61,643 nt of DNA from Candidatus Endomicrobiellum guadaloupense (GTDB lineage: Bacteria > Elusimicrobiota > Endomicrobiia > Endomicrobiales > Endomicrobiaceae), in contig JAITJN010000061.1 in the NCBI GenBank assembly GCA_031278895.1, forward strand, positions 1 through 61,643, read 5' to 3'. The translations under genes were made by a program, and so were the position numbers. The notes under the pieces are model-generated. The model ran no database searches. It saw nothing but the letters and a program-made list of their open reading frames with translations, and had not been told where the DNA came from. This document shows, one piece after another, positions 442 to 27,208 of the stretch. The stretch's first letter is position 1; the number at the start of each line of letters is the position of its first letter.

Positions 442-461
442 AGAATTTAAAGATAGTAGCA

Positions 462-1250: not shown

Positions 1251-1296
1251 AGCATGCGGTTATAATAAATACAATGAAGATAGAGATCAAAAAAGT

Positions 1297-1324: not shown

Positions 1325-1345
1325 TAACGAGTGATTTAAAAAATT

Positions 1346-2302: not shown

Positions 2303-2303
2303 G

Positions 2304-3491: not shown

Positions 3492-3534
3492 CAGAAAGTA
3501 AAAAGAAGAGACTTTATAAAAAGTGGAGGGACAT

Positions 3535-3660: not shown

Positions 3661-3687
3661 ATCTATTAGAAATTTTCGGAGGATTTA

Positions 3688-4185: not shown

Positions 4186-4202
4186 ATACTAAGGGGAGCA
4201 AA

Positions 4203-6538: not shown

Positions 6539-6565
6539 CTTAATAGTTAGTGGAGAATACTTTTT

Positions 6566-8008: not shown

Positions 8009-8036
8009 ATTTGGAATAAAGGATTAAGGTTATAGT

Positions 8037-11000
8037 ATGAATTTAGCAAGATTGTCAATCAAACGCCCCACTTTTATTTTCGCCTTACTTATGACGCTTA
8101 TTATTCTAGGCCTTGTTTCTTTAAGCAAGTTAAGCGTAAGAATGTTTCCTGATGTTGAGTTCCCTTATGTGGTTATAGTTACAACTTATAAAGGAGCAGG
8201 AGTTGCAGAAATAGAACAGCTTGTTACAAAACCTGTTGAAGATTCTTTAAGCGGAGTAGCCAGCTTAAAACATTCGTACTCTACAAACCAAGACAATATT
8301 TCAATAGTTTTTGGCGAGTTTGAACTTTCAAAAGACCCTGATGTTGCTGCTCAAGAAGTAAGAGATAAAATAGCGCAAATAAGAGATGCTTTACCTGAAG
8401 ATATAGATGAGCCGTTAATAATGAAAGCGGACATGAATTCAATGCCTATAGTAATGTTGAGTTTAAAGTCTGAAGGTATGAGTCCAAAAGAGTTGTATGA
8501 CTTTGCAGATGATATAGTGTCAAAGGATTTAGCGCAAGTTTCAGGAGTTTCTCAGATAAATATAATTGGTGGATCAAAAAGAGAAATCCACATAGATGCT
8601 GATAGGAAAAAACTTAAAGAATATGAGCTGACTCTTACTACTTTAGCTGCAAGAATTAAGTCTAATGCTTTAAATGTCCCTGCAGGAAATGTAACAAGAG
8701 GCAATCAAGAAATATCGTTTAGGACTATGGGCGAGTTTAAGTCTGTAGAACAAATAAATGATGTAGTAGTAAATTTTATGGGCAATGATAAACCTGTTCT
8801 TGTAAAAGATGTTGCAAAAGTTGAAGACAGTGTTATAGCAGAAGTTTCAAGAGCAAGGCTTGATACTAAAGAAAATGGTGAAATAATATATCAGCCGTCT
8901 CTTCTACTTGCAGTTTATAGACAGGCCAAAGGAAACGATGTTGCCGTTTCTGATGGCGTAAGAAAAGAGCTAACTCAAGCTAATGAGAGATATAAAGAAT
9001 ATAAAGGTAGTCCTAAACTTACACTTATTTCAGATCAGGCTCGTGGTGTAAGAATGAATATTGACGATGTAAAGTCTACAATAATAGAAGGCATTTTCCT
9101 TGCTATAATTGTAGTTTATTTCTTTTTAGGAAGTTGGCGTTCTACTCTTATAACCGCTTTAGCTTTGCCAAATAGCTTAATAGGCTCTTTTGTGTTTATG
9201 TACGCTTTTGGTTTTAGCTTGAACGTTCTTTCTTTAATGTCTTTATCTCTTGCAGTAGGTTTGCTTATTGACGACGCTATTGTTGTACGTGAAAATATTT
9301 TTAGACATTATGAAGAAGGTTCAAATCCAATAAAATCTGCAATTGACGGTACTAATGAAGTTACTTTGGCTGTTATAGCTACAACAAGTACAGTTATGGC
9401 GGTGTTTCTTCCAGTTGCTTTTTTAAGTGGAATAATGGGACGATTTTTTAAAGAATTTGGACTTACTGTTGTGTTTGCAATGATTGTTTCTGTTATAGAT
9501 GCTTTAACAATAGCTCCTATGCTTTCAGCTTATATTATTCCTGATCATGATAAAAGAAAATCTATTAAAAAATCGAAATTTAAAGAAATTAGAGATATCA
9601 TTGTAAAAGTTTTCAGACGGTTTAGTGTAGATTTATTCAATTCAGCTTTTTCTTTTTGCGAAAATCTGTATAAAGAGTTTATAACATTTATAGTAAAAAA
9701 AGATATATTAAATATTCCTGTTAAGTTTGTTGGAAAGCAAAGACATTTTATAATTAGTTGGAAATTTGCAACTTTAGTTATTTCTTTGTTTATTTTTCTT
9801 TTAAGTATAGGTATAGCAAAAAAATATATTAAAACCACATTTATGCCCACATCTGAATGGGGAGAATTTAACGTAAAGGTAACTGCACGTCCGGGAACTT
9901 CTTTGGATCAAATGGATAAATATGCAAAAGATATAGAAGATGTTGTTATGAGTGACCCTAACATTGAATTTGTTTCTTCAACTGTAGGTTCAGAAGGGAT
10001 GTTTTCTAGTTTGCCAAACCAGGCAACTATTTATGTCAAAATGATTCCAAATGATTCTAAAGGCGGTATTATTACAAGATTTTTTAGTAAAAAAGATAAA
10101 TCTGAGAATACTACTAAAAGAATGCGTACCACTTCGGAAATGAAGGATTATCTAAGAAAAGTTCTAAGGGATAAATATGGGGATGACCTTGAGTTCTCAA
10201 TACTAAAGAAGTCTATAGGAGGATCAGAAAGCGAATTTCAAATTGAACTCAAAGGTGCAGATATTGAGATACTTTATGATATGGCGAAAATTCTTATCGA
10301 GAAGTACAAAGATATACCTAATTTTGTTGACATAAGTTCCAATTATAAGCCAGGTAAACCTGAAGTGCGCATTGAGCTGGATACAAAGAAAATGGAAAAT
10401 TTTGGTGTAAGTTCTGTAGTTGTTGGAAATGAAGTAAGAGCCATGATAGATGGAGCCTTAGCTGGCAAGTTCAGACAGCACGGTCTTGAGTACGATATAA
10501 GGGTTAAATATGATGATAGTCAAAAAGATATAGCTAAAAATTTTGACTCAATATATGTAAACAATGTTAACAATAAACTTATAAAACTTAAAAATTTTGC
10601 TCATACAGAATCTTCATCAGGTCCTACGCAGATATTTAGAAAAGATAGAAATCGTTATGTTACTGTTGAGGGGAATGTTTCTACTGGTGGAGCAATAGGC
10701 GAAATACAAAAAGACGCGATGAAAATATTTGATGAAGTAAAATCTGATCCTAAATATAAAGATAAGTATAAAAATGTAGTTATAGCTTCTTCTGGTAATG
10801 CAGAAGATATGAGAGATATGTTTAAGAGTATAACAATAGCAGGGGTTCTTTCAATATTATTTATATTTATGATTCTTGCAAGTTTGTATGAGTCTATAAT
10901 AACGCCTTTTACAATTATGACTGCTCTTCCTCTTGCAATTGTCGGTGGAATTGTTGCTTTACTGATTTCTCGTCAACCTATAGATATGTTTACAATGATA

Positions 11001-11393
11001 GGCATGATAATGTTGTTAGGTATTGTGGCAAAGAACTCTATTCTTTTGGTCGATTATGCTCAACAACAAATGAGAACTGGCATGAGCATAGATGATTCAA
11101 TAATAAAAGCAGGTGTTATAAGGCTTCGCCCAATACTTATGACTTCTTTTGCTCTTATTGCTGGAATGCTTCCTACAGCTTTAGGTCTTAGTGAAGTTGG
11201 CAGTTTTAGAAAAGGGATGGGAATTGTTGTTATTGGTGGAGTTGTAAGCTCTACAATCCTTACATTGATAGTAATTCCATCAATATACGAATATATGGAT
11301 AAGCTTAGACACTTCTTACGAAGACTTACAGGAAGACCCAATAAGAGAATGATTGATTACACTGAAGAACAATTGAAAGGAAAAAATTTGTAG
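8037..11393 (+). CDS. RND (AcrB/HAE1-type) multidrug efflux transporter
   Basis: This inner-membrane proton-driven pump has 1118 residues. TM1 lies at 12-32 (FIFALLMTLIILGLVSLSKL); the porter domain contains FPDVEFPYV and P.E..EQLVTKPVE; TM4 has the proton-relay pair D412-D413 in VGLLIDDAIVVREN; the second half repeats the pattern, with GIVAKNSILLVDYA in TM10. It is about 70 residues longer than AcrB because of a Lys-rich cytoplasmic loop between TM6 and TM7 (about 500-585). No membrane-fusion (adaptor) protein is encoded between it and the TolC-like gene or after it, so the periplasmic link must come from elsewhere. A hairpin terminator follows. Confidence 0.92.
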   Translation: MNLARLSIKRPTFIFALLMTLIILGLVSLSKLSVRMFPDVEFPYVVIVTTYKGAGVAEIEQLVTKPVEDSLSGVASLKHSYSTNQDNISIVFGEFELSKDPDVAAQEVRDKIAQIRDALPEDIDEPLIMKADMNSMPIVMLSLKSEGMSPKELYDFADDIVSKDLAQVSGVSQINIIGGSKREIHIDADRKKLKEYELTLTTLAARIKSNALNVPAGNVTRGNQEISFRTMGEFKSVEQINDVVVNFMGNDKPVLVKDVAKVEDSVIAEVSRARLDTKENGEIIYQPSLLLAVYRQAKGNDVAVSDGVRKELTQANERYKEYKGSPKLTLISDQARGVRMNIDDVKSTIIEGIFLAIIVVYFFLGSWRSTLITALALPNSLIGSFVFMYAFGFSLNVLSLMSLSLAVGLLIDDAIVVRENIFRHYEEGSNPIKSAIDGTNEVTLAVIATTSTVMAVFLPVAFLSGIMGRFFKEFGLTVVFAMIVSVIDALTIAPMLSAYIIPDHDKRKSIKKSKFKEIRDIIVKVFRRFSVDLFNSAFSFCENLYKEFITFIVKKDILNIPVKFVGKQRHFIISWKFATLVISLFIFLLSIGIAKKYIKTTFMPTSEWGEFNVKVTARPGTSLDQMDKYAKDIEDVVMSDPNIEFVSSTVGSEGMFSSLPNQATIYVKMIPNDSKGGIITRFFSKKDKSENTTKRMRTTSEMKDYLRKVLRDKYGDDLEFSILKKSIGGSESEFQIELKGADIEILYDMAKILIEKYKDIPNFVDISSNYKPGKPEVRIELDTKKMENFGVSSVVVGNEVRAMIDGALAGKFRQHGLEYDIRVKYDDSQKDIAKNFDSIYVNNVNNKLIKLKNFAHTESSSGPTQIFRKDRNRYVTVEGNVSTGGAIGEIQKDAMKIFDEVKSDPKYKDKYKNVVIASSGNAEDMRDMFKSITIAGVLSILFIFMILASLYESIITPFTIMTALPLAIVGGIVALLISRQPIDMFTMIGMIMLLGIVAKNSILLVDYAQQQMRTGMSIDDSIIKAGVIRLRPILMTSFALIAGMLPTALGLSEVGSFRKGMGIVVIGGVVSSTILTLIVIPSIYEYMDKLRHFLRRLTGRPNKRMIDYTEEQLKGKNL

Positions 11394-11409: not shown

Positions 11410-11439
11410 TTGACTTTCATAAATAAATAATATTATAAT
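11410..11439 (+). promoter_or_regulatory. Near-consensus sigma70 promoter upstream of the giant gene
   Basis: TTGACT (11410-11415) and TATAAT (11434-11439) are separated by 18 bases. The same TTGACT-N18-TATAAT arrangement occurs before rpmB (49864-49893, - strand), which supports it as the house pattern. Transcription would start near 11446 and run through a hairpin-rich leader toward the ATG at 11738. The -10 box overlaps the left arm of an inverted repeat, a typical operator position. Confidence 0.55.
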
Positions 11440-11737: not shown

Positions 11738-14700
11738 ATGAACTTAAAGTCAAAATTATTAGATTATCTTGATATCTATTGGGGAAAAAACTTATTATTA
11801 AAAAGCATATCCGTTATCTTAACGATATGCTTTTTAATAAATATCTCCAACTTACCTGCATATTCAAAAGAAAAAGATGACGAACTGCTTAGAAAACGAA
11901 TGAAAAAAGAAGAGACAAATGCAGGAGTACTATACCAGGGAGATCAAACATTTGGATCTGTTTCGTATATGCAGTTTTTGGCAAATAATACCAAAGTTGA
12001 TGATAACGGTGTGATATTTGTAAGAAATAAAGATGGAAAGTTTGAAGCTAAAGGATATTGGGATTTGCAAACTCAACAAGCTATGGTCTTGGGTGGCGAT
12101 GGTAAATATGTTCACAGTGAAACATACACCAAAATAATAAAAAAGCTTAAAGGCTTTAGTGAGGATTCAAATACACCTCACGATACGCCACAAGAGAGAC
12201 AAGCAGCACAAATAGATAACAACCCTCCACAACCTACAAGTGCAGATGAACCTCAACCTACACCTCAACAACAGCCTCAGTCCTTGCCACAAAATGAACA
12301 GCCTAAAGAACAACAATCTCAAGGTTCACAGACAGATAAGATGCCTGAAGTTCAAACTGAGGCTCAATCTGAAGATGTTAAGAAACCAGAAGTAGATAAA
12401 AGTAAGACTCAATCTGAACTTGATAAAACTAAAAAACAGAATGAACATTATAATTATGTTATTGAGAATTTAATGCGCGAAACAGGTCTAAGCATGAAAG
12501 AAATAGAAAAACAGCTTGCGACACTTGATCAAGAGCAGCGCCAAGGAGTGATAGGTGCTCTTTATAACTTATACAAGAGCAATCAAAGTATTATTTCTTG
12601 CGCTGCAAACGCTTTAGGAAGTGTTTTGAATCAAATTGGAGCTGGAGCTTTAGCAGTTCTTGCTCTTGGATTAATAATTAGTGATGCAATTGCAGGTCTG
12701 TTTACCAAAAACAATCAAGGCTTAATATCTGGTACTTCCAACCAATTATACATAAGTGCACAAGCAATGCAAAAAGTACTTGCCAAGTATGGGCAAGATT
12801 ACAATGGATACACGGCCACGGTTGATGATATTGTTAAAGGTTTGGGTATTGGGGAGTCTATAATAATCCATGTTGGCAGTGGCCACTTTATAACTGTTAC
12901 TAAAAATGAAGATGGATCGTTTACTTTATCCGATATAAACAATCCAAATCATGAAGTAAATTTAGGGGCTGAAGAATTAAGTGCTTTATTAAATATATAT
13001 CTTCAAGGAAACACTACAACAATTGTTCTTGCAAAACAAAATGGAGTCTTTAATGAGAATAAACTGAAGTCGGATTTATCTAAAATTCTTGGAGCAATCA
13101 CTTTACCTTCCGAAGTAAGGGACATAATAAGCGATTCTAGCAGATCTGGGCAATATTACCTTGAACACGGAACTGACTCTTATTTCTTACTTATGATAGC
13201 AATATTTGGTAAGACAGATTTAAATCCTGCAGAATCTAAAGAGTTTACTCAATGGTATGAAGTATTTTTACAAAATGCCCTTAAAGGGTTAAGTAAAGGC
13301 GTAGCTGATAATAAGCCCTCACAAACTGAAAACAAGATAAAAAGATTGGAAGACGAAATAGAAAGTTGGCAGGACGCTCTTGTTGGTGAAACGAATCAAG
13401 GGGTGAAAGATAAGTTAAATGAGCAAATTAGTGATGCGCGAAGAGAAGTCGATAATTTACGCAATTCAACATTGCCTGCAGTTAGACAAGAATACCAAAA
13501 ATATCAAGCTTTAATAGCAGAAGCAGCATATGAGCTAGCAGTAATAAGTGAAGTTATAAAAATTTTAGCTGATTCAACAAAATACCCAGGTGCAATAATA
13601 GGTGGGCAGATAGGTCAAGTTTTAGTGACAGGTAAATCTGTTGATACTACGAGCTTAGACGTACCTTCAGGCGAGTATTTCTTGTTAATTTGTATTACTG
13701 CAAGTTATGCTGGAGTACAAGAAATCAAATATAGTGGTGATGACGGAAGAGTTATTCCAAAATATGCAGTAGGAATAAATGATGTAACTTATTCATTTAG
13801 CACTACAACCGGGTGTACTGTAACTTTACCAAATGGTGGTTATTATAAAGTTTTTGGAGTGCAGGGACAATTCCAGGGACAGAATGTTATTTTTCAATAT
13901 CAAGGATTTTATGATCCGAATGATAATAAATTCTATATGTACGAGTTTGCCAATATTTATTTAATGAATGACGCAAGTTATGTGTACCAACAAAAGGATA
14001 ATCCTGGAGCAAGTCCTCCGTTAAGTGGAAAGTATGGAGATGCTGCTCCTCCTCGTAATAATTGGAGTCGTGGTATTATTACAGAAGATGAAGGTGGCTA
14101 TAAAATAAGTGGAGCTGGCAGCAGAGTAACAGTAAAGAGAGATTCCGGTACAGGAAAATGGCAAGCTGCTATTGTTGGACTTGGAACAGAAGCACTCGCA
14201 GGGTCTATGCTAAAAATTGGTGCTATAGATAAGAATGGCCATGATAATAGTGTTTATGTAAATATACTAGTAGGTAAAATGACTTATGCTGGTAGTTATT
14301 GGGCTGCTTCTGACGGTATGGTGTGGAAATTTGCTCCAATAACTACCCGAGCAGAGGCAGAAGCTTATGTTGCAACTATTTTAGGAAATCAGCTAAGTAG
14401 TGATAATGCAGGATTGATAGATAGTATAACTCTTGAAAAAGGGCATATAGATATAAATACTAAATTTTACGGAGTTCCTCACTCGGCTGTCTCCATTATG
14501 AACGAGTCTCATATTGAATTTAGGATTGAGTTCAAGAAAGGATATACTTATGATGCTACTGGTCAAGGTGATATTTACAAACTTACTTTTCTAGAAGATG
14601 CTACTGTTATTATAAGAGTGGAAGACAATCTATTAAAATTGTTTGCTACAACCAATATAAAGGTAAGTGTGACTCTTCCAGATGGATGGGCGTTTGGAGA

Positions 14701-17700
14701 TGGCAGTACAACTATGTCTGATGTAACTATAAATGCTGGTCAACAAATATGTTTGGCAACGGTTTTGAACAATAGAGGGACATATATTAAAAATACTGAA
14801 GATATTGAGATTATTACTGGCTATGAAGACAGATCAGACAAGTCAACAGATGAAAATGGAAACCCATTACTAGATTACACAAAACCTATAACAACAAAAA
14901 TTGGTAAAGGGAAATTAAAAATAGTGGGAAATAGTGAAGGAAAATATATTACTTCTGTTGATATATATATAGGTTTTAACGCCACAGACGGAACATGGTA
15001 TGTTGCTGATGGTAAAACTAACGATTATTGGTTAGCTGGCGCTGAAATAAGTCTAATGAGGACAAAGGCAAAAGATGGGACAATATCTTACAAGATGTCT
15101 ATTGTTAAAGGCAACCTGTATGTTACAAATCAAACCTTTGTGATTCCTGGTAGAGATGGAAAAGATGATGATGAGAAGGCTAAAGGTAAAAATAATGGAC
15201 CTTACTTTGATGGAAACAATACTGGAGTTGAGGACGGAGAGAATGGTGATAAAATTGTTAGTGGTGTAACAGGAACATTTTATGGTGTTTCTGGCGTAGG
15301 GCTTACCTTAGAAACCTTAGCTGGTGTTCTTTTTGCTGAAGGGTCTAAATTTGGAGAGCATTCATATGCTCCTGATGGAACACAGTCTAAATACGCGTTT
15401 GAAATGAAGAGAGACGGGACTATTGAACAGAAAGATGTATCATTTTGGGACAAACTTGGAGGCTGGTTACTTGCTATTGTAAAGATAGTAATTACTGTTA
15501 TTGTTTCTCTAGTCGCACTATGGGTGATATTCAGTTTAGTACCTATATTACTTCCTATTGCCGGTATAGCTCTTGGATTTGGTTTTGGTTTAGCTAAAGA
15601 AGAGACTTTAAATTTCTTTAAGAAAACTTTAGTGGATCAATTTAAAAGTTTTGCTGCAGGCATATATGATGATTGGAATAGAACAGAAAATTCCAGTGAG
15701 AAAACGGAAACTGCTTGGAAAGGTGGATTTGCAATGTTAGCTGCTGGGTATATGGCTATAGTTACAGTAGCCATTGCAATCGCATCTATTTTAGCTACAC
15801 CTTTTAGTGGAGGAGCTAGTCTTGCCGCAGGTATAGCTACTGTTATAGGTATGATTAGCGCAATTGCAGGAGCAGTACAAGCTGGCCAAATGATGTACCA
15901 AGCAGTTCTTGCTTTTGAGTACGGAGATTGGAAAACTGGCCTTGCTTTAATGGCTATGTCTTTATTTATAGCAGTAACGACAGTATTGGGAGGCAAAGGA
16001 GTAGGGAATGCTGTAAAATCTTTAGTTACTGAATTTTCAAAAGAACTGGCAAAAGAAGCAGTTAAAGTTGTAATAAAATCAGCTGCAATTGGTCTTGTTT
16101 CAGGTGCTGCTTTAGGTGCTGGTATTGGAGCTTTAGCTGGCTATATTATGCATGGTATACAGACTGGGGATTGGGAAGGTGGAGGTCAAGACGCTGCAAC
16201 AGGAGCTTGGCAAGGTGCAATTTTTGGTGCCTTTGCTGGCATGAGCGCAGGTATAAGTATAGGAACGAAAATCTTCAACCAGGCTCTTAAAGAAGCTGTT
16301 ACAGCGCTTGATACAACTCCTACTGTAAGTTCTGAAGCTCCTGGCGGTGCACAACCGACTGCTGAAAGTCCTATGACCCCAGCAGGAGGAGTGCCAAAAC
16401 CTACAGCTCCATCTTTACTAGGAGGACCCCCGGCAGAAGGAGGAGCGCTAAAAGTTCCATCTTCGCCAGGAGAAGCCCCACTAGGAGGAGGAAATTTAAG
16501 AGGTTCAGGTTTGTCGTCAGTAGGAGAGCCAACAGGAGGAGGAAATTTAAGAGGTTCAGCTCCATCGTCAGCAGGAGAGCCAACAGGTGCTGGAGTAGGA
16601 TTACCAAAAGCTCCATCTGCCACGACGTCGGGAGGTGCCTCAGCACCAGGGACTCCACCAGCAGCTGTACCACCAGCACCACCACCAGTCGTGCCAGCAG
16701 CACCAGTCACTGTTCCATTGCCAACAGTGATGACAGTAGGCGATATTTCCTTTGTGAGAGGATTTTTTCTTCTTGGAGCTTCTATTAAAGAAAGCTTGGC
16801 TAGTGCTATAAGGTTTGCACCTGTTGTAGATGTTAAATCTTTACTAACAGCTATTTTCACTGCTGTTGGGAGATTTATTGGTGCTGTTTTAAAACTAGCA
16901 TCAAAGGCTCTTGAGTTTTATATAACGTATAAATCTGTACAAGGTTTTATTGATGGCATCAAAGAAGGTGATACGGACATGATTCTATCATCTTTATGGA
17001 CGCTGCTTTCAATAAACGTTATTTCTCCTCTTATGTCAGCATCATCTGGAATACAAAGTAAAGATGAAGTAGCGGCGGCTGCAAAGGCTGCAGAACTAGA
17101 CGCAGCTTTAAAGACCCCTGAGCTCAACGTTAATATAAGAGGAGAATTTAAAAACATGTTTGTTGACGGTATAGTTGGGAATATTGGCACGGGTCTTGTT
17201 GGCGCTGGCATTGGTATAGCACTTGTATATCTTATCAAATGGATTAAAGGTGAAGACCTTGATAATTTAAGTACAGCAGAAATATCTGCTGGCATAACTA
17301 TTGGTTTTACAATGGGTTTTCTGGCCAATGCAATTTCTCGTTTATTTGGTTCTAATTTAGGAGCTAAGATTCTTGATTCAATTAAGAGGACGTTCTCCGG
17401 TCTAGTTGGTAGGACTGTAACGGATGCTGAGGCTGGAGTAGTTCTTGGATCGTTCAGTGCTTGGAATTTAGCTAAGGTATGGGGATCTGGAATTGTAGGG
17501 CTTATCTTATTTGGTGCTTTGTTTCCTTTGTTTGCGTTTTTATTTGGAAACGATGATGAAGAAGATGATGTGGAAGGTGATGAAGATCCGGAAAGTGCTA
17601 AACGTAGAAAAAAACAATATTATATTAAATTTATGTTAATAGGAATGGGTGCAGGGCTTGTAGTTGGACTTGGCTTTGGTAATGCTTGGATAAATGGCAA

Positions 17701-20700
17701 ATATGGAAGTTTAAAAGAAACATTAAAAAATATACTTGGGCCTAACTCCCCTATTCTGCTAAATTCCTATAGGGTTTCTTTTCAAATGTCTATTATTAGT
17801 ACAAAACTTGCTTTTGGGTCTGCGTTATTTAGTAAATTTTTAGAATTAATTGGAGAGGACAATCTTATCAGAGAAGGTGGCCCTTTTGCTATAGTAGATG
17901 AGGCTACTGGTCTTGGATTTTTTGAGAAAGGACAAGACATATATAAGTCTAATTTTGATCAAAAAACTATAAACTGGTTTTTTAAGAAAAATTTTGAACA
18001 ATTTATAAATCCACAGACTAGAGTTTTTTCAGGGATTATTACTGTGCTGCTACCCATATTGGGACCGGCTCTTTTGAATTCGCCTTTTCTAGGTACAATT
18101 ATGGGACCACTTGCATCTGCTGGAAATTCATCATTTATCCAGCAAAGTGAAGCTGTGAAATATATATATGAAAATGGGATAAAGGAGCGGTTATCTGGAA
18201 TCTTGGGGAAACTTATATTTGGCGATTCTATGGCTGGGCAAATTTTCCAAGAGTTGTTTGACGCAATGCCTGAGGATACAAATAAATCTAAGCTAGAACA
18301 ATTACAATTTTTAGCTTCTCATGGTTTTAATGTTGATAAGGTGCCAGAGGCTATAGATATTTTAAAATCCGATCCAGTAAATTTTAAGGAAAATTTAGAA
18401 AAAGCTTTCAAAATTTTGGGAGTCAATATACCAGATACTGAGCTTTCTTTTTTTGTAGAAAGTTTTTGTAAAATTTTCGATATTAACTTAGAAAATCTTA
18501 ACTCTTTGCTAAATCTTGTAAAGGAATTAAGACAAATCCAAGCAAAAATAAAAGACATAGAAAAAAATGATTTTACGGACAAAGAAGAAACTGAGCTGCA
18601 ACAACTAGCGGATCTTGGTGTAAGAACAAAGGAAGACCAACTGAGATTTGACTTTCTTCTTGAGAAGAAAGAGTTGAATGGTCTTAAAGAAAAGGAGAGT
18701 AGTTTAAAGCAACAGATAAAAAAACATAGGGAAACATTCAGCTCTGCAATTAAAAAAATATCAACGCAAAACTTAACAATGTTTATTTTGAAAGCGATCG
18801 CTAAATACAAAACAAGACTGCATGGTATCTACTATTCAGGGGAAAATTTAGAGGGTGAAGATCCTGCGTATGCTGCAATGTATGAAAAAGAGTTTGATAA
18901 TAATATTACTATGAATCAGATTATGGATATGATTGATAATTTAACGCTACCAGCGGGACTTTCTATTACTGAACAGTTGAATTATTTATATGGTATTGCT
19001 GGAATTGCTTCTTTAGGTATATCCTCTTTAAATATTAAATTAATCAACCAAGGAGATCAATTTAGTCTAACTCAAGAGATGCTAGAAGAATCTTTAGCAA
19101 ATAATAAAAGCAAAGATGTAGTAATTGAATTTTTATTAAATTACGCTTCGGCTATTTCAAAAATTCCTGACAAACAGCAGGAAGTACTTAGTATCGTTAA
19201 GATGTTAACTGGCGCATTTGAAAGTATTGAGGGTGGAAATGTAGCGCAAACTCTCTTTATGGCACAGTACTTAAATGTGTTAATGGGATCTTTAAATGTT
19301 AAAGATAAAGATATTTCAGATGGTATACAAAAAGCTGTTGACAAACTATTTAATATTGTTGGTAAACAAATGGTTGAAAATTTCAAAAATTCGCCAAGAT
19401 TAAGAGATGCGAGAATTATAGAGTTAGCAAATCTTGGTGAAATGCGTACACCTGAGCAGCAAACTGAATTTAATGCTTTTAGATTGAGCGAAGGAGAGGT
19501 AGAGTTCATAAAAGCTCAATATTCACCTGAAAGCTTAGCATTGAGTAACTACATAAATATGATAATTGATCAGGTCCAAAAAGGGGAAATAACGTATGCC
19601 CAATTTAGAGCTTTAATGGATACTGGTGATGAAGTATACTTTAAAGGTGGCAATGCGCGAACAAATGGATACAGGGCAGATTTAAGAAGATTAATGGCTG
19701 CTGAATCCAACAGAATTATTAGTGATGTAAATAATCTGTTTATTAAAAGACTCATTAGTAGAGAAGAAGCAATTACATTAAAGGAACAAGTGTTTTATTC
19801 AAGTTGGGCAATCGCTCCAATAAGTTACTTTAATATTTCCTTAAGTGTTCAGTCAAGAATACAAGCATTAACTCCTGCAACTGAAATCACAATTAAAACT
19901 CATGATGGTAATTTTAAAATATTTAAAATTGCCGATATATCAGAAATAGAAATAGTAGGAAATTTGAGAGATGTGAGATTAATTTTTACAGTTATTGATA
20001 GTGATAAAGAAGTAAAAATAGAAGGTTCTTTAAAAGGAAATTTAAGTTCTCTTGCTGCAAACCATGACGTTATTGGCAGAATTATGCCTCATATGAGAGC
20101 TTTACTTGAATCACAATTTTTCCCTGATAATGCAACTATAAAAATGGGACTTCTTAACGACATTGCATTATATTATGCAGCAGCTAAAATCGAGGCAGCT
20201 TTTACTGAAATTAAAAGTGACAGTGATCCCACGTGGAATGCTATAAGTTATGCGCTATTAAATACTGATGGAAGTGGAAGACTGAGGACTGGTATTTTTG
20301 GTGAGAATGGAGAATTGAGTACAGAAACGAAAGACGATATAATAAAGATGCTCGACTATGAGAGAGGGTATCAGTTGATTGATAAAATTGCATCAATAAC
20401 AAAAGAATCTAAGAATTTACAACTCTCATTTAATAACGATGGTACATTAACAAATGATTTTAAAGCAAAAATTGTAAAAGATCTTGGGGATACTATAGGA
20501 GACAGGTTTATTAGTTCAGTTGACAATAGATATTCCGCAATAGTTAAAGTTGTGATGTCAAAAGACTCCTATGAAACTGACGGTACTTTAAAAAAGGATA
20601 AAATAACATCAATTGGAGAGCCAGCTGCTAGAATGATAGAGTCATATCGTGCTGCTAGAATCCAATTAGAAAATATTTGGAACAGAGAAGATTTTATAAA

Positions 20701-23700
20701 TGGAACAATGCTAAGGCAGGATATTATTACAGAGCTTAGTAAAACTTTTTTAGTTGGACAACAAGCGTTGATTGAATCTTTTGCTGTTGAATGTATGAGG
20801 TTACAACAGATGATGACTCTGTACACTAATCAATCAGTAGAATTGCTTAGAGCATTAGCTGGAAATTCATCTCAATCTCCATTATCTCAATTAAAGACAT
20901 TCTTTTCGTTGGATAATGGTATACAAATGTCAGGGGTAGATTTATATATCTTGCTAAAGGTTGTAGAAGAATCCGGAAAAAAGAACGGGTATGATTTAAA
21001 TGGAGCAATAGAGAGCTTGACATCATTGGGAAGGATAAGACAAGAATTAGAAGAATTAACAAATGCTGAACTTGTTTGGGAAGTGATCTATAGAGCATTT
21101 GAACTTAATGTAGATGCTAAATCAGCTATAAAGACTGTTTTAGAGAAAGCAGATTCTATTGTCGAAGGGAAATTAAGTGACAATGCCAAATCTGAAATTG
21201 GAAGAGTTTTGAGAGACAAAGGCGTAGATACGACAAAAATCCAAAAAGTTATCGACAATGTTGATTCTATCCGTATGAAAATGGAAGAGCTTAGATTAAA
21301 TCCAGGCAGTAAATTAGATCCCGATTTTCATTATAGTGACGAAGCTGTTCGACAGGCTTTAATGCGTGAGTATGAAATAGTGAATACAAAAGCAGAAGAA
21401 ATTAATAACTTGGAATCAAAAATGAATTCTCTTTTTGCAGACTCAGGCTATTCTGACAATAAAGCATTACTGCCTCGTTTAGAATATTTACGAAATAATT
21501 CTAAAGATATAAATGAAATGTTTGAAGGAAGAGGCAATAAAAGTGGTGATATGAATCAAAGAGTTAATGATATTGTAGATAAATTCAGTAAGGGAGAGAT
21601 TAGTCAGGAAGATATAGACTATATTAAAGATTTAGGTGTTGCAAATTTTGTACAAGAATTTTTAAATGGACGCGTTGACGGCGAGTCTGATGGAAAAGTT
21701 ACTAAATTCAGAGATGGTACTTTGGATCTTTTACGTGCTGTAGTGCTTACTATGGAAAATAATGACTTGAAAGCACAAGCAGCTAATGTTTTAAAGATGT
21801 TTATGATAGAGGCAAATAGGCGAGTTAATGGTTTTAACTTACGTACTAGTCAATCTGAAATGATCTCTCACTTTCAAAACAACGAAAATGTCGCAGTGGG
21901 AATGGGTGGTGGTAAAACAATTGCAATGGCTATAGATGCAATTATTGCAAGAGTGCTTAAGGGAAAAGATGCCAACACAGAGATATTGGTTGGAAATGAC
22001 GATTTGGATAATTACGCGTCAAACGCTAGTATTGGTAGGAAGCTATTTGAATCTTTAGGTATGAAAGCTGCCAACATTGAAGATTATAGACTAGAAGGTC
22101 ATGACACAGATTTGGACGGCATTAGAGGTATATATAGCGATCCTGACACCGTTGTTATTATGAGTCCTACTACAAGAGGTCATTTAAAAAATGAAGCGAT
22201 AAGTAAAGGTGGGGCAGAAGGGCAACTTTTAAATGATATTCTCAATAGCGTAAATAGGGTTATTGCAGATGAAGTTCACTTATGGGCTCTTACGCGCACG
22301 GCTTCTGTAATAGGAGGCGACAATCAACCTCCTGATATTGGATTAGTTAGAAGAACATTGGAGATAGGAAATGTTTTAAATGCGTCAGCTATATATAATG
22401 CTATGCTTGCTGATGGTAAAAATAATGTTCTGTCCGCAGAAATCACAATGCCTGAGTTAGATAATAGAAGTGTAACTATTTATCGTTTTAAAACTGAAAG
22501 AGATCTTCAGGCTGCAAAGCTACCCGAGAATTGGATAGCTGTTGTTGGTGAACAATCATCCTCTTTAGAGGTAAAAATGGCAGACAAACTTAGAGAGAAC
22601 TTAATAGAAAAAATTGTTCATTCTGGGCCAAAGAATACATATTATGGTGGTGATGACGGATACAATGAAGCAAGGCGGTTAAACAGTGTAATAATGGGTT
22701 TATTTTCAGGTTCAGAAAATGGGGGTATGCAAATATCTAGACAAGATGGAACTGTAAAACCTGTTGGCGTAAGTGGTATCCAAGAAAACATGGTTCTTAA
22801 TGATATATATCGTCAACTTGGATTTACATTAAGGTTAGGTCTAGAAAAACAAATGCCTGAAAGTGAAATGAAAGATTTTATGCAGAAATCCACAAAAACC
22901 AGTAAAACCAGTATGCAAACATCCTTAGCAGCAATATATTCTGGAGCTCGCGATGTTGTGATGGTGGGAGGTTCTGGAACTGTTGACGGCTTGCAGCAGC
23001 TTATTATTAACAGGACTGGTGCTGCGACGGTTTATAATATAACTGGAGAGCAAGCAGAAGTGGAAATGTTTAAATCAGCTTGGGATATTGGTGGAAGCTC
23101 TGAAGGTGAAATGAGTAAACTGGGACAACAATTGAAAACAGCTCTTGAAAATGATTTTAAAGGGTTTGATAATTTCTTATTTCTTGCCAAAACTAAGACT
23201 AGTTTTGAGGAAATAATAAAAGCAGTGCAGGAGAACTGGGAAACATTAAAAGCCATTGGTGTTGAAGTATATGAATTCACTGATAGGAAAGGTAAGTGGA
23301 GTGGAAAGGATGCAAGCTTAGTTCCTAATGAACAAAGCCAAAGTGATTTGGTTAAGGATTCGAGTAAAAAGCGGTTAATAATTGCAAACGAAAGCGGTGC
23401 TACCGGAATAGATTATCAAGGTGATTTTGTAAATATATTACTTGATACTCATTTAATGAGTGATGCAGACTTGGCTCAAGCTTTAAAGAGAACAGGTCGA
23501 CCAAATCCAAAAGCTAAAGATAATGAGAAAAAGAGATGGGATACTGTTAGAATAATGGCATATACCAACGATAACATAACATCTCAGCTAGACGCATTTA
23601 TTAACAGTCCTATGTTTAGAGACAAAGCTATTGAAGCGTGGAGAGGTTCTGGTTATATGCAAAACAAAGTTGCTGAAGAATTATTTAATAAGTTTATAAA

Positions 23701-26700
23701 GGCTGGCAATAAGATTGATTTGGCAACTATGTCTCATGAGGAAGTAAAAGAGATCTTGATTCTTGTATCAAATATCAGATCACTGTATGACATTGATGCT
23801 TCTATAAGATTTGCTGTAACTGATTCTATTAGAGATAGGATGGTTTTAAGTGTTCTTAGAGACTTAGTCGCTACTATGCCAAAAGGTGCTGCTCGGGATG
23901 TTGTGCAGAAAGAACTAAATGCCGCTCTTGATTCCAAAGGGCAGTTTGACAAAGAACGCTTTAGTTTAGAAAACAGAAAAGCCGAAAGCGCAGAAGAAAT
24001 TGTATTGAATGCATTTAATGGAGTACGAGAAGAAGTTAATGATCGTTTTGGAAGATTAAAAGATATTTTCTCTAAAGATGAAGTACTTCAAAAGCAGTTG
24101 CAGATTGTTTTAGGACATATGCAAGCTGTTGATTTAGCTCTTGAGCCAGCAAGTTATTTTGGACGCAGCCCTATTATTGATAGAGGACTTTCTTCAGCGA
24201 TAGATCTTGTAGAATTTGTTGGCATAATACGCTCATTTGAAGGATATATAATGCCAATGGAAACTGTTGCAGATACTGCTGGTAAGTCTTATGCTTCACA
24301 GGCTTTTGATTCGTCAAGACCTCAAACACCTATAATAAATGTTTTACATCAAAAGTCTGAGTCCGGTGGAGAGTATGTAAGAAATGAAAATGGAGAAGAA
24401 GTTTTAACCGCAAAAGGCAAGTTATTTATGGATATTCAAAAGCGGTTAAGTTCAGATAACTCTATAGCATGGTTGATGTTTTTTATGGCGGTGCTTAATG
24501 CATTAGGTGTTGGGGATTTAATGGAAAAGGACTATACCAACATCAACAATAATAATCCTAAAGAAGTTGCGCAACTCGCAGAAGAACTTACACGAATACT
24601 CTGGGAAAAAGCAGAGATAAGCAAACTTAATGAAATAATTACTACTTATGGCAATATGCGAAGTGATAATGAAGAACAACGTGAGTTTAGAGAAAATCAG
24701 ATAAGACAAGATGAGATTGGAATTAAAGAAAACAGTACTAATGAAAATAGTTCTACAAGTATAAAAGTTGGTTCAGACGAATACAAGAAGTTCTTTGAAG
24801 GAAATGCAAGAAGCAAATTTATAGATGACTTCAGAGCTAAATTGTCCAAAGATACTTCATTGTCTACTGGAGGGGAACTTACACCTAAGGGAAGAATGTT
24901 TGTTAAAATAGCAGAAAGATTTATGGATCAAGATTCTGATTGGAAACAATTTTTAACAGAAGGGCCATTAGCACAATTTATTTTTTCAAGTGATATAATA
25001 GTTGACTTTAAATTTAATGCTGACACAGCTTTAAGAATTACGAATGAGCTTTGGACAGCTGGCGTATGGGATACTGAACAAATAGAATTACTTTATGGTT
25101 GGTATAAATCAATCCCTGTTGAAAGTCGTACTGGTGCTATAACATCGTTTATTCAATTAAAAGGTGTTTTAACTGCTAGACATTCAACTATCAAAAAAGA
25201 ACTTGCAAAACAGAAAGGATACAAATTGCCAAATGCTATGGTTATAGAGCTTGCAAAATTAACTCAAGGTATGTCTTTTGGCAATGATATGAAAGGATAT
25301 GAAGCTTATTTCAAAAATATTTTAGAGTTTGATGAAAGAGCTGAAGTAGCAGTTGAGAGGACAGTATATATGGGCAATCTGGCTTCAGATGTAAGCCTAT
25401 CTTCTGTGCCTAAATGGCTCAGAACTTTTGGAGCAGGTATTTATTATTTGACTCCTTGGGGCCGGTTTGGTAGGTATAACTCAGGGTCTAGTTTTAGAGG
25501 ATTGCAAGACTCTGTTTTCGTTGATGTCAGTAAAGCCCGTGATTTTTTTTCTTTACAAGGGGAAGATGTTGATAATACAGGAGATTTTATAAACTTTATA
25601 AGGCCGTTAATGTCTATCTCTGGAGCTAAAAATGACAGAACAGATACTGCTTTGGATAACTTTAAATCATTCCTTGAATTAACAACGATGAAAAACATAG
25701 ATGCAATGACTAAGACGAAGTTTTATCAGCATAAATATTTTAAAATTGCTGTAACTGCAGTACTTATTGCTTTATTTTCAGCTGTGACTTTTGGTATCGG
25801 TGGAGTTGTTGCTACCATAGCCTTTGCACTTTTATCTGTAACAGCAATTGTTGCACTTCTTGTACGTAAGCTTTACTATAAAGAGGATATTAACCCATTA
25901 ACTTTATTAAAATCAGTGCCAAAATTCTACGAAACGCCTTCAAACTTAAAGATAGGAGATATCAATAAGTTCAACAATATTGAGACACTTTGTACTTTGG
26001 CAAAAGATGGTACGTTGAGTTCTAAAGATATTGGCAAACTCAAGCTAAATACGTTACGAAATCTTCTTGATAATAGTTATCCATGGATAATAAGCACAGA
26101 AGAGAAGCATTTTCTTGTGGGTAAGGGAATGTTAGATAGAATGGATGCTTTGAAGGAAGAAGAGATAGGACGTTATATCAACGATCCATATTATGTAAAT
26201 AAAGAAGCTGATGCTGAAAAACGTAAGGCATTGGTAGAGAAAGAGTTTAAGTGGAATATGGCAGCAATTAGTAAACTTATTTTTGAAAAAAATGCTGATA
26301 GGATGAATGAAGGATACATAAACTCAAATGAATTTAAGACTTTAGCTAAAAAACTGCTTGTAGTTATGTTTAATGATGTCAAAGTAGCAAAAAATTATGA
26401 TGTTATGATTGAAAGACTAAAAGGTATTTTACTACAAGAAGGAAATCAACCAGGCGTTGTTCCTAAAGATTTAAATATCTCTATAAATCAATTAGAAGAC
26501 AGTAATTATTTTAATAATGATAACAGTCTCAAAAAGTCAGTGGTAGACATAACTAATGTTGAGCTTAAATTAGATAAAGGTATAAACGTACAAGGCGCTG
26601 GAAGACGTTTAGTCGGCGTAATGGGCGAAGGATTTACAAAACCTGAAGAAGTCAATATGGCATTGGCAAAGGCTTTGTATTATTTTAGATCTTATGATGA

Positions 26701-27208
26701 AATGAAACAATTTCTGAATATATCAGATGAAGACCTACAAGATGAAGCTGTTATAGCTCAAAAAGCATTTAATACATACAAAGAAGCTCTTGGCAGATTT
26801 GCAGATGGAGAGTTGGCAGAAAATGAATTTAAAGAAGTTATCCAATTAATAAGGATTGTTTCAAGTGTTATAATGATAGCTAAAAATGACCAAGAAAAAG
26901 TTAGTCTGATAAATAGGCGTAACTATGATGAAATACATAATGCATTCAATGTGTTTGAAGTTGGCTTAAAATCTAAAGTTTTTGTAGATGTATTTAAAAA
27001 TGAAGAGCAGAATATAGATAATGGTAAATTGTTTGAAATAGATATAAATAAGTTAAAAACAGCTTTAGAGAAGAAAAATGATAAAGGTTCAAGAGTGCTT
27101 CCTGATAAACTGGATTCTTTGCTTCCAATGATGAAAGAAGAACGTAAGAAATTTGATGCTTTGACAAACATACGAGCAAATGCAAGGGCTGTTGCCGCTG
27201 CAGCTTAA
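11738..27208 (+). CDS. Giant multidomain protein (5156 aa): C39-like protease, membrane region, SecA-like ATPase
   Basis: One uninterrupted frame, preceded by AGGGAG (11721-11726). Order seen: long-n-region signal sequence (h-region 22-40, then AYS); Gln/Pro linker (145-235); C39-like cysteine protease with C288, H383 and D399 (the 16-residue His-Asp spacing matches ComA-type proteases); coiled coil (530-600); beta-rich region (about 630-1230); about a dozen hydrophobic or glycine-zipper segments (1243-2128), interrupted by a Pro/Gly/Ala linker (1528-1662) and an acidic cluster (1939-1951) followed by RRKK; helical region to 3350; SecA-like ATPase (3360-3950) with Walker A GMGGGKT (3388-3394), IADEVH (3509-3514), a GGSGT loop (3744-3748), GATGID (3887-3892) and ALKRTGRP (3915-3922); C-terminal helices with a membrane hairpin (4668-4709). 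Function is unknown; export, processing or contact-dependent secretion is inference. Flanked by terminators, so transcribed alone. Confidence 0.9.
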   Translation: MNLKSKLLDYLDIYWGKNLLLKSISVILTICFLINISNLPAYSKEKDDELLRKRMKKEETNAGVLYQGDQTFGSVSYMQFLANNTKVDDNGVIFVRNKDGKFEAKGYWDLQTQQAMVLGGDGKYVHSETYTKIIKKLKGFSEDSNTPHDTPQERQAAQIDNNPPQPTSADEPQPTPQQQPQSLPQNEQPKEQQSQGSQTDKMPEVQTEAQSEDVKKPEVDKSKTQSELDKTKKQNEHYNYVIENLMRETGLSMKEIEKQLATLDQEQRQGVIGALYNLYKSNQSIISCAANALGSVLNQIGAGALAVLALGLIISDAIAGLFTKNNQGLISGTSNQLYISAQAMQKVLAKYGQDYNGYTATVDDIVKGLGIGESIIIHVGSGHFITVTKNEDGSFTLSDINNPNHEVNLGAEELSALLNIYLQGNTTTIVLAKQNGVFNENKLKSDLSKILGAITLPSEVRDIISDSSRSGQYYLEHGTDSYFLLMIAIFGKTDLNPAESKEFTQWYEVFLQNALKGLSKGVADNKPSQTENKIKRLEDEIESWQDALVGETNQGVKDKLNEQISDARREVDNLRNSTLPAVRQEYQKYQALIAEAAYELAVISEVIKILADSTKYPGAIIGGQIGQVLVTGKSVDTTSLDVPSGEYFLLICITASYAGVQEIKYSGDDGRVIPKYAVGINDVTYSFSTTTGCTVTLPNGGYYKVFGVQGQFQGQNVIFQYQGFYDPNDNKFYMYEFANIYLMNDASYVYQQKDNPGASPPLSGKYGDAAPPRNNWSRGIITEDEGGYKISGAGSRVTVKRDSGTGKWQAAIVGLGTEALAGSMLKIGAIDKNGHDNSVYVNILVGKMTYAGSYWAASDGMVWKFAPITTRAEAEAYVATILGNQLSSDNAGLIDSITLEKGHIDINTKFYGVPHSAVSIMNESHIEFRIEFKKGYTYDATGQGDIYKLTFLEDATVIIRVEDNLLKLFATTNIKVSVTLPDGWAFGDGSTTMSDVTINAGQQICLATVLNNRGTYIKNTEDIEIITGYEDRSDKSTDENGNPLLDYTKPITTKIGKGKLKIVGNSEGKYITSVDIYIGFNATDGTWYVADGKTNDYWLAGAEISLMRTKAKDGTISYKMSIVKGNLYVTNQTFVIPGRDGKDDDEKAKGKNNGPYFDGNNTGVEDGENGDKIVSGVTGTFYGVSGVGLTLETLAGVLFAEGSKFGEHSYAPDGTQSKYAFEMKRDGTIEQKDVSFWDKLGGWLLAIVKIVITVIVSLVALWVIFSLVPILLPIAGIALGFGFGLAKEETLNFFKKTLVDQFKSFAAGIYDDWNRTENSSEKTETAWKGGFAMLAAGYMAIVTVAIAIASILATPFSGGASLAAGIATVIGMISAIAGAVQAGQMMYQAVLAFEYGDWKTGLALMAMSLFIAVTTVLGGKGVGNAVKSLVTEFSKELAKEAVKVVIKSAAIGLVSGAALGAGIGALAGYIMHGIQTGDWEGGGQDAATGAWQGAIFGAFAGMSAGISIGTKIFNQALKEAVTALDTTPTVSSEAPGGAQPTAESPMTPAGGVPKPTAPSLLGGPPAEGGALKVPSSPGEAPLGGGNLRGSGLSSVGEPTGGGNLRGSAPSSAGEPTGAGVGLPKAPSATTSGGASAPGTPPAAVPPAPPPVVPAAPVTVPLPTVMTVGDISFVRGFFLLGASIKESLASAIRFAPVVDVKSLLTAIFTAVGRFIGAVLKLASKALEFYITYKSVQGFIDGIKEGDTDMILSSLWTLLSINVISPLMSASSGIQSKDEVAAAAKAAELDAALKTPELNVNIRGEFKNMFVDGIVGNIGTGLVGAGIGIALVYLIKWIKGEDLDNLSTAEISAGITIGFTMGFLANAISRLFGSNLGAKILDSIKRTFSGLVGRTVTDAEAGVVLGSFSAWNLAKVWGSGIVGLILFGALFPLFAFLFGNDDEEDDVEGDEDPESAKRRKKQYYIKFMLIGMGAGLVVGLGFGNAWINGKYGSLKETLKNILGPNSPILLNSYRVSFQMSIISTKLAFGSALFSKFLELIGEDNLIREGGPFAIVDEATGLGFFEKGQDIYKSNFDQKTINWFFKKNFEQFINPQTRVFSGIITVLLPILGPALLNSPFLGTIMGPLASAGNSSFIQQSEAVKYIYENGIKERLSGILGKLIFGDSMAGQIFQELFDAMPEDTNKSKLEQLQFLASHGFNVDKVPEAIDILKSDPVNFKENLEKAFKILGVNIPDTELSFFVESFCKIFDINLENLNSLLNLVKELRQIQAKIKDIEKNDFTDKEETELQQLADLGVRTKEDQLRFDFLLEKKELNGLKEKESSLKQQIKKHRETFSSAIKKISTQNLTMFILKAIAKYKTRLHGIYYSGENLEGEDPAYAAMYEKEFDNNITMNQIMDMIDNLTLPAGLSITEQLNYLYGIAGIASLGISSLNIKLINQGDQFSLTQEMLEESLANNKSKDVVIEFLLNYASAISKIPDKQQEVLSIVKMLTGAFESIEGGNVAQTLFMAQYLNVLMGSLNVKDKDISDGIQKAVDKLFNIVGKQMVENFKNSPRLRDARIIELANLGEMRTPEQQTEFNAFRLSEGEVEFIKAQYSPESLALSNYINMIIDQVQKGEITYAQFRALMDTGDEVYFKGGNARTNGYRADLRRLMAAESNRIISDVNNLFIKRLISREEAITLKEQVFYSSWAIAPISYFNISLSVQSRIQALTPATEITIKTHDGNFKIFKIADISEIEIVGNLRDVRLIFTVIDSDKEVKIEGSLKGNLSSLAANHDVIGRIMPHMRALLESQFFPDNATIKMGLLNDIALYYAAAKIEAAFTEIKSDSDPTWNAISYALLNTDGSGRLRTGIFGENGELSTETKDDIIKMLDYERGYQLIDKIASITKESKNLQLSFNNDGTLTNDFKAKIVKDLGDTIGDRFISSVDNRYSAIVKVVMSKDSYETDGTLKKDKITSIGEPAARMIESYRAARIQLENIWNREDFINGTMLRQDIITELSKTFLVGQQALIESFAVECMRLQQMMTLYTNQSVELLRALAGNSSQSPLSQLKTFFSLDNGIQMSGVDLYILLKVVEESGKKNGYDLNGAIESLTSLGRIRQELEELTNAELVWEVIYRAFELNVDAKSAIKTVLEKADSIVEGKLSDNAKSEIGRVLRDKGVDTTKIQKVIDNVDSIRMKMEELRLNPGSKLDPDFHYSDEAVRQALMREYEIVNTKAEEINNLESKMNSLFADSGYSDNKALLPRLEYLRNNSKDINEMFEGRGNKSGDMNQRVNDIVDKFSKGEISQEDIDYIKDLGVANFVQEFLNGRVDGESDGKVTKFRDGTLDLLRAVVLTMENNDLKAQAANVLKMFMIEANRRVNGFNLRTSQSEMISHFQNNENVAVGMGGGKTIAMAIDAIIARVLKGKDANTEILVGNDDLDNYASNASIGRKLFESLGMKAANIEDYRLEGHDTDLDGIRGIYSDPDTVVIMSPTTRGHLKNEAISKGGAEGQLLNDILNSVNRVIADEVHLWALTRTASVIGGDNQPPDIGLVRRTLEIGNVLNASAIYNAMLADGKNNVLSAEITMPELDNRSVTIYRFKTERDLQAAKLPENWIAVVGEQSSSLEVKMADKLRENLIEKIVHSGPKNTYYGGDDGYNEARRLNSVIMGLFSGSENGGMQISRQDGTVKPVGVSGIQENMVLNDIYRQLGFTLRLGLEKQMPESEMKDFMQKSTKTSKTSMQTSLAAIYSGARDVVMVGGSGTVDGLQQLIINRTGAATVYNITGEQAEVEMFKSAWDIGGSSEGEMSKLGQQLKTALENDFKGFDNFLFLAKTKTSFEEIIKAVQENWETLKAIGVEVYEFTDRKGKWSGKDASLVPNEQSQSDLVKDSSKKRLIIANESGATGIDYQGDFVNILLDTHLMSDADLAQALKRTGRPNPKAKDNEKKRWDTVRIMAYTNDNITSQLDAFINSPMFRDKAIEAWRGSGYMQNKVAEELFNKFIKAGNKIDLATMSHEEVKEILILVSNIRSLYDIDASIRFAVTDSIRDRMVLSVLRDLVATMPKGAARDVVQKELNAALDSKGQFDKERFSLENRKAESAEEIVLNAFNGVREEVNDRFGRLKDIFSKDEVLQKQLQIVLGHMQAVDLALEPASYFGRSPIIDRGLSSAIDLVEFVGIIRSFEGYIMPMETVADTAGKSYASQAFDSSRPQTPIINVLHQKSESGGEYVRNENGEEVLTAKGKLFMDIQKRLSSDNSIAWLMFFMAVLNALGVGDLMEKDYTNINNNNPKEVAQLAEELTRILWEKAEISKLNEIITTYGNMRSDNEEQREFRENQIRQDEIGIKENSTNENSSTSIKVGSDEYKKFFEGNARSKFIDDFRAKLSKDTSLSTGGELTPKGRMFVKIAERFMDQDSDWKQFLTEGPLAQFIFSSDIIVDFKFNADTALRITNELWTAGVWDTEQIELLYGWYKSIPVESRTGAITSFIQLKGVLTARHSTIKKELAKQKGYKLPNAMVIELAKLTQGMSFGNDMKGYEAYFKNILEFDERAEVAVERTVYMGNLASDVSLSSVPKWLRTFGAGIYYLTPWGRFGRYNSGSSFRGLQDSVFVDVSKARDFFSLQGEDVDNTGDFINFIRPLMSISGAKNDRTDTALDNFKSFLELTTMKNIDAMTKTKFYQHKYFKIAVTAVLIALFSAVTFGIGGVVATIAFALLSVTAIVALLVRKLYYKEDINPLTLLKSVPKFYETPSNLKIGDINKFNNIETLCTLAKDGTLSSKDIGKLKLNTLRNLLDNSYPWIISTEEKHFLVGKGMLDRMDALKEEEIGRYINDPYYVNKEADAEKRKALVEKEFKWNMAAISKLIFEKNADRMNEGYINSNEFKTLAKKLLVVMFNDVKVAKNYDVMIERLKGILLQEGNQPGVVPKDLNISINQLEDSNYFNNDNSLKKSVVDITNVELKLDKGINVQGAGRRLVGVMGEGFTKPEEVNMALAKALYYFRSYDEMKQFLNISDEDLQDEAVIAQKAFNTYKEALGRFADGELAENEFKEVIQLIRIVSSVIMIAKNDQEKVSLINRRNYDEIHNAFNVFEVGLKSKVFVDVFKNEEQNIDNGKLFEIDINKLKTALEKKNDKGSRVLPDKLDSLLPMMKEERKKFDALTNIRANARAVAAAA
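16484..16585 (+). repeat. Two tandem 51-bp repeats in the giant gene's linker
   Basis: A 51-base unit (17 codons) occurs twice: GGGNLRGSGLSSVGEPT and GGGNLRGSAPSSAGEPT (residues 1583-1616). The copies differ at a few bases only, so the duplication is recent or kept similar by slippage. It lies in the Pro/Gly/Ala/Ser-rich linker between hydrophobic blocks and keeps the frame. Confidence 0.85.

Follow-up and report, generated by a model that had tools for sequence, protein, structure and literature searches.

A giant gene of Candidatus Endomicrobiellum guadaloupense encoding a protein with a C39-like domain and a SecA-like motor

We analyzed a window of 61,643 nucleotides from Candidatus Endomicrobiellum guadaloupense (contig JAITJN010000061.1 of assembly GCA_031278895.1; "the window" is this whole stretch of DNA, and all positions refer to it), focusing on one giant gene. 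The gene is a single frame of 5156 codons at 11738-27208 on the forward strand, with an ATG start and no internal stops, exactly as a preliminary description of the same DNA, made from its letters alone, had reported. Among 100 Markov-1 sequences as long as the window, the longest open run reached 211 codons, and the GC content of the gene is strongly uneven over codon positions 1, 2, and 3 (0.47/0.36/0.23). Consequently, the frame is coding. The features computed for its product are a Sec-type signal, a C39-like catalytic triad, beta-rich modules, a hydrophobic region, a SecA-fold ATPase, and a C-terminal domain.

Layout of the giant protein

All of the features described here lie on the forward strand. 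A signal sequence had been noticed before; it is of Sec type (residues 1-45; 11738-11872), with a hydrophobic core at residues 19-37 and the end NLPAYS, and relatives carry similar ends (NLPAFA, NLPAYA, and NLPVFA). The first 230 residues have homologs in G282, G285, G018, G322, and G295, as well as on contig 38 of G322 and contig 38 of G301 (G and L numbers are our designations for genomes and loci). As a separate observation, positions 11795-11840 within the signal-coding region resemble their own reverse complement (89% over 46 bases).

The C39/papain-like domain follows at residues 233-460 (12434-13117), with Cys288, His383, and Asp399 as its triad; alignment, profile comparison, and weak structural support place it there. 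A beta-rich region (residues 767-1239; 14036-15454) was recognized by three consecutive strong matches to the homologous module of a 9550-codon relative. Next comes a hydrophobic Gly/Ala-rich region in which the Kyte-Doolittle scale, the only method used, predicts 11 segments between residues 1250 and 2114 (15485-18079), in line with the many segments previously placed at 1240-2130; tandem repeats at 16483-16587 and 16655-16705 belong to a Gly/Pro/Ser-rich linker within it. A variable region (residues 2140-3240; 18155-21457) is, by composition only, rich in helix-forming residues and leads to the SecA-like motor (residues 3306-4240; 21653-24457), recognized by alignment, structure model, and Foldseek. 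On the 3' side of the motor lies a hydrophobic hairpin (residues 4669-4708; 25742-25861) that has three Lys/Arg among the 15 residues outside it on either side, and the protein ends in a C-terminal domain (approximately residues 4943-5156; 26564-27205) with matches closing 14 type A frames.

The window protein had no match that passed the curated thresholds of Pfam and NCBIfam and none in PHROGs at E 0.01, it was absent from searches of the genomes of the phylum with PF03412 and PF07517, and searches against PDB sequences returned nothing significant (best E 0.11 and 0.24). Matches to T4SS, DUF61, RPA_C, and F0 subunit B were dropped, each being below its cut-off. Judged by their sequences, both the C39-like and the SecA-like domain are very divergent.

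The SecA-like motor and the C39-like domain

The preliminary description had proposed a SecA-like motor at residues 3340-3960. The SecA fold holds, and it is longer than proposed, extending over residues 3306-4240. When the model of this region was compared by Foldseek, ranks 1 to 25 were all SecA or SecA2 (best E 9.9e-12); the structural alignment covers SecA residues 16-829, which is nearly its full length, at an identity of 10-14%. Sequence patterns locate motif I (Walker A, GMGGGKT) at residue 3388 (21899-21919), motif II (Walker B, ADEVH) at 3510 (22265-22279), a motif III-like GGSGTV at 3744 (22967-22984), motif V (GATGIDYQG) at 3887 (23396-23422), and motif VI (QALKRTGRP) at 3914 (23477-23503), so that the window protein has the two lobes of an SF2 motor together with its motifs I to VI. 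The Walker A and the D-E-x-H motif are invariant in alignments of three and eight rows, and the ATP-binding and hydrolysis motifs of the window motor are intact. Between motifs II and III lies a SecA-sized insertion, at the position of the preprotein cross-linking domain; the starts of the two motifs are 234 residues apart, versus 184 in the four SecA proteins listed. Going by position, one helix of 47 residues and two paired helices in the model could correspond to the long scaffold helix and the two-helix finger of SecA.

The motor could instead be a nucleic-acid helicase, and the SF2 folds of MDA5, RIG-I, and Brr2 do match the model. However, they rank below SecA, almost all of which is covered by the match and which shares the insertion between motifs II and III, and a helicase-like protein from the same genome (L013) reached only E 0.1 in the profile comparison, where reversed SecA gave 0.31 and the C39 set 0.44. 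We consider a helicase very unlikely. The window motor thus shares with SecA and SecA2 almost the entire fold, the insertion, and motifs I, II, III, V, and VI; the difference is that it is embedded in a 5156-residue membrane protein and missed by Pfam SecA_DEAD, which has no match above its cut-off in the window protein. Two relatives with a second type of motor pass that cut-off (29.5 and 26.8 bits). The window genome encodes a separate, normal SecA.

A C39-like protease had likewise been proposed, at residues 270-440. The fold call withstood comparison, with residues 233-460 as its extent. Against six genuine C39 domains of the phylum, this region gave a probability of 94% and an E value of 9e-8 with the triads in register, while controls gave 0.63 for reversed C39 and 0.51 for SecA. 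The Cys-His-Asp triad occurs in C39 order, and Cys288, His383, and Asp399 are invariant in all 11 aligned copies, which were cut from nine homologous giants (copies found later are not part of this alignment). At the orthologous domain, PF03412 passes its cut-off in the 9550-codon giant of G322 (27.5-27.9 bits) and in a 7805-codon giant of G318 (25.1 bits), and two further giants have sub-threshold matches at the same position (20.5 and 16.7 bits). PF03412 also gave a sub-threshold match (18.1 bits) close to the C-terminal end of the G301 giant. The low-confidence model of the N-terminal part had PCAT1 (E 5e-3) and the C39-like CtaG (E 0.027) as its best Foldseek matches, with none at E 0.001 or better; it is poor near the Cys helix (pLDDT about 25-35). 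A VIA comparison of the same model returned mainly coiled-coil chains; this says little on C39, and the absence of C39 rows there is not counter-evidence.

Distribution, selection, and decay

Genome searches were restricted to the phylum of the window (340 genomes; motor alignment, E 1e-5), and duplicate records were counted once (L050=G282, L051=G022, L052=G018, L053=G301, L054=G324, and L055=G285). The motor alignment matched 21 of the 340 genomes: the window's own, nine others of the genus, eight of the family, and three outside the family. In a scan of contigs, which relies on two short patterns, the window protein alone found no match, and the alignment found seven loci, with no Omnitrophota among those listed. 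The seven come from Candidatus Endomicrobiellum devescovinae, Endomicrobium sp. Gx485, Ca. E. cubanum, Ca. E. incisitermitis, Ca. Endomicrobium neocapritermitis, an Elusimicrobium (isolate RUG10662), and a contig assigned to Lachnospiraceae. Of the records behind the first six, G282, G022, G018, and G285 fall within the window's genus and G301 and G324 within its family. The seventh locus is a giant fragment (L056) in a Lachnospiraceae bin and is probably a mis-binned Endomicrobia contig. No relative of the giant protein was found in a viral scan.

Two motor types can be told apart: M1, the window's type (GMGGGKT, DEVH, QALKRTGRP), and M2 (AGGGKS, DEAD, QAIGRAGR). They are homologous (E 5e-28 over 784 columns in a profile comparison), and in G295, a member of the genus, an M2 motor sits between flanks homologous to those of the window protein. 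A C39-like domain upstream and a motor downstream in one frame were found in eight genomes, with M1 in the window's genome, G018, G285, G322, G301, and G299, and with M2 in G318 and G321. The two folds hence recur in the same order in several genomes, which the preliminary description had named as support for its reading.

Nine other motor frames had no C39 match (G317, G305, G046, G048, G208, G322 contig 25, G022, G324, and L056); because each starts at a contig end, their N-termini are out of view. No significant C39 match was present in the second-type frames of G302, G318 contig 7, and G322 contig 58 (3-9035). The C-terminal domain ends the 14 type A frames of the family with a visible 3' end, the window's included, and was not found in G046, G302, or a motorless frame on G322 contig 38. 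In other families of the order (G025, G027, and G028), 3 of 11 further frames have Walker A and DEAH/DEID at 60 to 75% of their length, by motif scan only. On contig 20 of G046, from another family of the phylum, 2-56953 is an open frame of 18984 codons with an M2-type motor, and 237903-274469 on contig 1 of G025 is a frame of 12189 codons with three C39-like matches of very different strengths. Contig 58 of G322 carries the 9550-codon type A giant (18158-46807) near the second-type giant at 3-9035, whose neighbors of about 260 and 586 codons look similar, by eye, to those in G318 and G316.

Selection on the gene was estimated from dN/dS. Between E. devescovinae and Endomicrobium sp. Gx485, the ratio was 0.26 over 2879 codons, with 0.08 and 0.11 in two stretches inside the motor and 0.19 at the motor edges; between the window and Gx485 it was 0.31, and 0.14-0.22 in the motor (rough values, dS being about 1). 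The giant gene is under purifying selection, which is strongest in the motor. Its state nevertheless differs among the nine other genus members with a motor match. Four have long frames: that of G018 is complete, those of G022 and G285 are cut by contig ends, and that of G282 is split into two overlapping frames. The other five (G017, G015, G021, G281, and G004) keep short pieces only, most with stops, and the pieces of G017 keep the order of the intact protein, the pattern of a gene in decay. The G295 giant consists of two adjacent frames with one stop between them. The relatives are metagenome assemblies, in which real and artefactual splits are indistinguishable. The split frames of G282 and G295 and the fragments in five sister genomes might suggest that the window's gene is itself an artefact of assembly or frame, or is decaying. 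We find this barely credible given the low dN/dS, the 9550-codon homolog, and the 5510-residue homolog of G018, which follows the window protein end to end in collinear order through six main segments. We also rejected an artefactual fusion, since end-to-end homologs exist.

Possible roles and genomic context

The preliminary description had drawn an analogy with peptidase-containing ABC exporters (PCATs). The window protein resembles these in having a C39-like domain, then a membrane region, and then an ATPase, and PCAT1 is the top, though weak, Foldseek match of the N-terminal model (E 5e-3). PCATs have an ABC motor domain and a cytosolic C39 domain that sits at the extreme N-terminus with no signal peptide. 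In C39, a glutamine six residues before the cysteine is the oxyanion-hole residue. The window protein has a SecA-like motor, no ABC domain in a Pfam scan, a Sec-type signal before its C39-like domain, no oxyanion glutamine, and about seven times the length of a PCAT, and the related G316 protein has its motor first. The analogy is weak because the C39-like domain follows a Sec-type signal. Of the earlier interpretation, then, the two folds and their order in several genomes stand, and the analogy with PCATs is not supported.

Giant genes are a kind already known. Most full-length giants reportedly carry divergent SecA DEAD domains, according to the abstract of a 2023 preprint by West-Roberts et al. 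By that definition, the window protein qualifies in giant length, transmembrane segments, and divergent SecA. Giant genes are described as common in Omnitrophota and Elusimicrobia (PMC12057145, PMC11573180; Omnitrophota, PMC10066038), with Elusimicrobiota among the phyla rich in them (PMC12057145, PMC11573180), and as tied to predation, adhesion, or host association (PMC12057145, PMC11573180, PMC10066038); PMC12057145 cites a preprint on giant genes (bioRxiv 2023.11.21.568195). The Omnitrophota giants share with the window protein great length, transmembrane segments, and few annotated domains (PMC10066038). Compared with published giants (Seymour et al. 2023 and the West-Roberts et al. preprint), the window family differs in its recurrent N-terminal C39-like domain with an intact triad, in a SecA fold of nearly full length, and in carriers that include a genome-reduced genus of termite-flagellate endosymbionts. 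Endomicrobiellum is the genus of all flagellate endosymbionts characterized to date (PMC11257099), and the main text of that paper, the main one on Endomicrobia genomes, has in the parts available no mention of giant, secretion, pseudogene, toxin, or SecA. Among the matches listed, the literature on giant proteins and genes had no mention of Endomicrobi, and SecA and C39 occurred together only in a minimal-cell paper; SecA DEAD together with giant returned nothing in the literature searched. The recurrent pairing of C39 and SecA, and its presence or decay in this symbiont genus, were not found in print, in a search whose scope excluded preprints and most subscription journals.

We tentatively favor, at somewhat less than even confidence, a giant envelope protein family of Endomicrobiaceae, in which a membrane-anchored surface giant carries a cytosolic polypeptide motor. 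The Sec pathway would export the N-terminal part, so that the C39-like and beta-rich domains face outward, and the Gly/Ala-rich helices would insert into the inner membrane. The motor would remain in the cytosol and there push polypeptide across the membrane or hold it in passage, the substrate being most likely the long chain of the protein itself; the C39-like domain could cut or cross-link the exported chain, and the product may act at the surface toward the flagellate host or neighboring cells. The main argument for a cytosolic motor is that ATP is found there, and the hairpin at residues 4669-4708, positive on both sides, agrees with it; other charge patterns are undecisive. The C39-like domain should lie outside the inner membrane because it follows a Sec-type signal. 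Beyond this, the Elusimicrobiota giants might form a separate class of one-polypeptide translocation machines, with a SecA-derived motor fused to a membrane passage, an exported passenger, and a C39-type processing or cross-linking domain. Such a machine would be SecYEG-free for that step, and symbionts would use it to bring a giant protein onto membranes that face the host, or through them, an extension that we think doubtful.

The preliminary description had proposed a self-contained machine; as a translocase for other substrates, it would export cargo through its own membrane region and trim it with the C39-like domain. In its favor, a single chain unites C39, a membrane region, and a SecA-like motor, but the C39-like domain lies behind a signal sequence, which would put it across the membrane from a cytosolic motor, and the number of segments in the hydrophobic region is not conserved; we hold this to be distinctly improbable. 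The whole protein could also be exported as a giant effector, with an adhesin-like N-terminus, insertion of the hydrophobic region into a target membrane, self-processing by the C39-like domain, and a SecA-like ATPase active in the ATP-containing cytosol of a host or neighboring cell. The signal sequence and Gly/Ala-rich hydrophobic region would suit an effector, and giants have been linked to predation or host contact (PMC10066038). Polymorphic toxins include C39-like peptidases, and host-directed effectors of the amoebal symbiont Amoebophilus include SecA-like domains related to helicases; SecA-like and papain-like domains are found there in large secreted proteins (PMC3482391). However, the window protein differs from these in having no toxin, ankyrin, or RHS domain in a Pfam scan (nor a toxin domain in NCBIfam or PHROGs), its family has carriers outside the endosymbiont genus (e.g., Ca. 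Endomicrobium neocapritermitis and an Elusimicrobium), and the motor is its most conserved part. An effector is unlikely in our estimation, while being far from implausible.

Several observations weigh against a membrane-anchored surface giant with a cytosolic motor. Taken by itself, the profile match to SecA is weak (36%), and the M2 motor reached only E 0.024 against SecA (reversed, 0.44); M1 and M2 together gave E 4.2e-4 (reversed, 0.51). Motifs are incomplete in part of the family: by strict patterns, motif II is present in all 11 distinct motors, Walker A and motif V in 9 each, and motif VI in 6, and no Walker A was found in the G305 motor. The glutamine at position -6 from the cysteine is absent in 11 of 11 C39-like copies and present in four of six genuine C39 domains among those listed with the Cys region (11 taken). 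Its loss makes peptidase activity doubtful, and the domain may be a cross-linking or otherwise altered enzyme rather than a peptidase. The topology rests on crude hydropathy with a mixed charge bias, and the relatives examined have from 2 to 11 hydrophobic segments between C39 and motor. In G316, a giant of the second type, the order is reversed, with SecA_DEAD at approximately residue 913 ahead of the C39 match at 2173. Beside the giant gene, whose neighbors are only partly annotated, we noticed neither a partner nor a SecY-like gene, and the giant appears dispensable, since five sister genomes retain fragments only.

Among PVC-related giants, this case offers a defined, conserved domain order of a SecA-like motor and a papain/C39-type domain, and one symbiont genus supplies a natural series of intact, split, fragmentary, and not detected genes. 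Together, the domain order and the series open topology, the use of ATP, and contact with the host to direct tests on two domains that are small and expressible.

The genome to which the window belongs, as contig 35, measures 1.30 Mb, with a completeness of 94% and a contamination of 0.2%. By eye, GGGAG is located 10 bases 5' of the ATG of the giant gene, and a TTGACT-TATAAT promoter match lies at 11410-11439, one of three promoter-like matches versus 1.6 expected. Upstream on the forward strand, at 6566-11393, Pfam identifies an efflux cassette of an outer-membrane efflux protein (6566-8008) and an RND pump (8037-11393), which we treat simply as neighbors of the giant gene; malic enzyme and fumarase genes lie on the other side. 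RND efflux genes also adjoin giants, by eye, upstream in G282 and G295, and are found near giants, downstream, on G318 contig 37 and G046 contig 20. We set aside a functional link between RND pumps and giants as at most suggestive, RND genes outside the window having been recognized by eye from N-terminal sequence. The window's own genome holds a second motor-region fragment (L125; G000 contig 9, 26951-27088), with 61% identity over 46 residues, at a contig end, and an ABC gene near it resembles, by eye, the ABC gene that adjoins the giant in G285.
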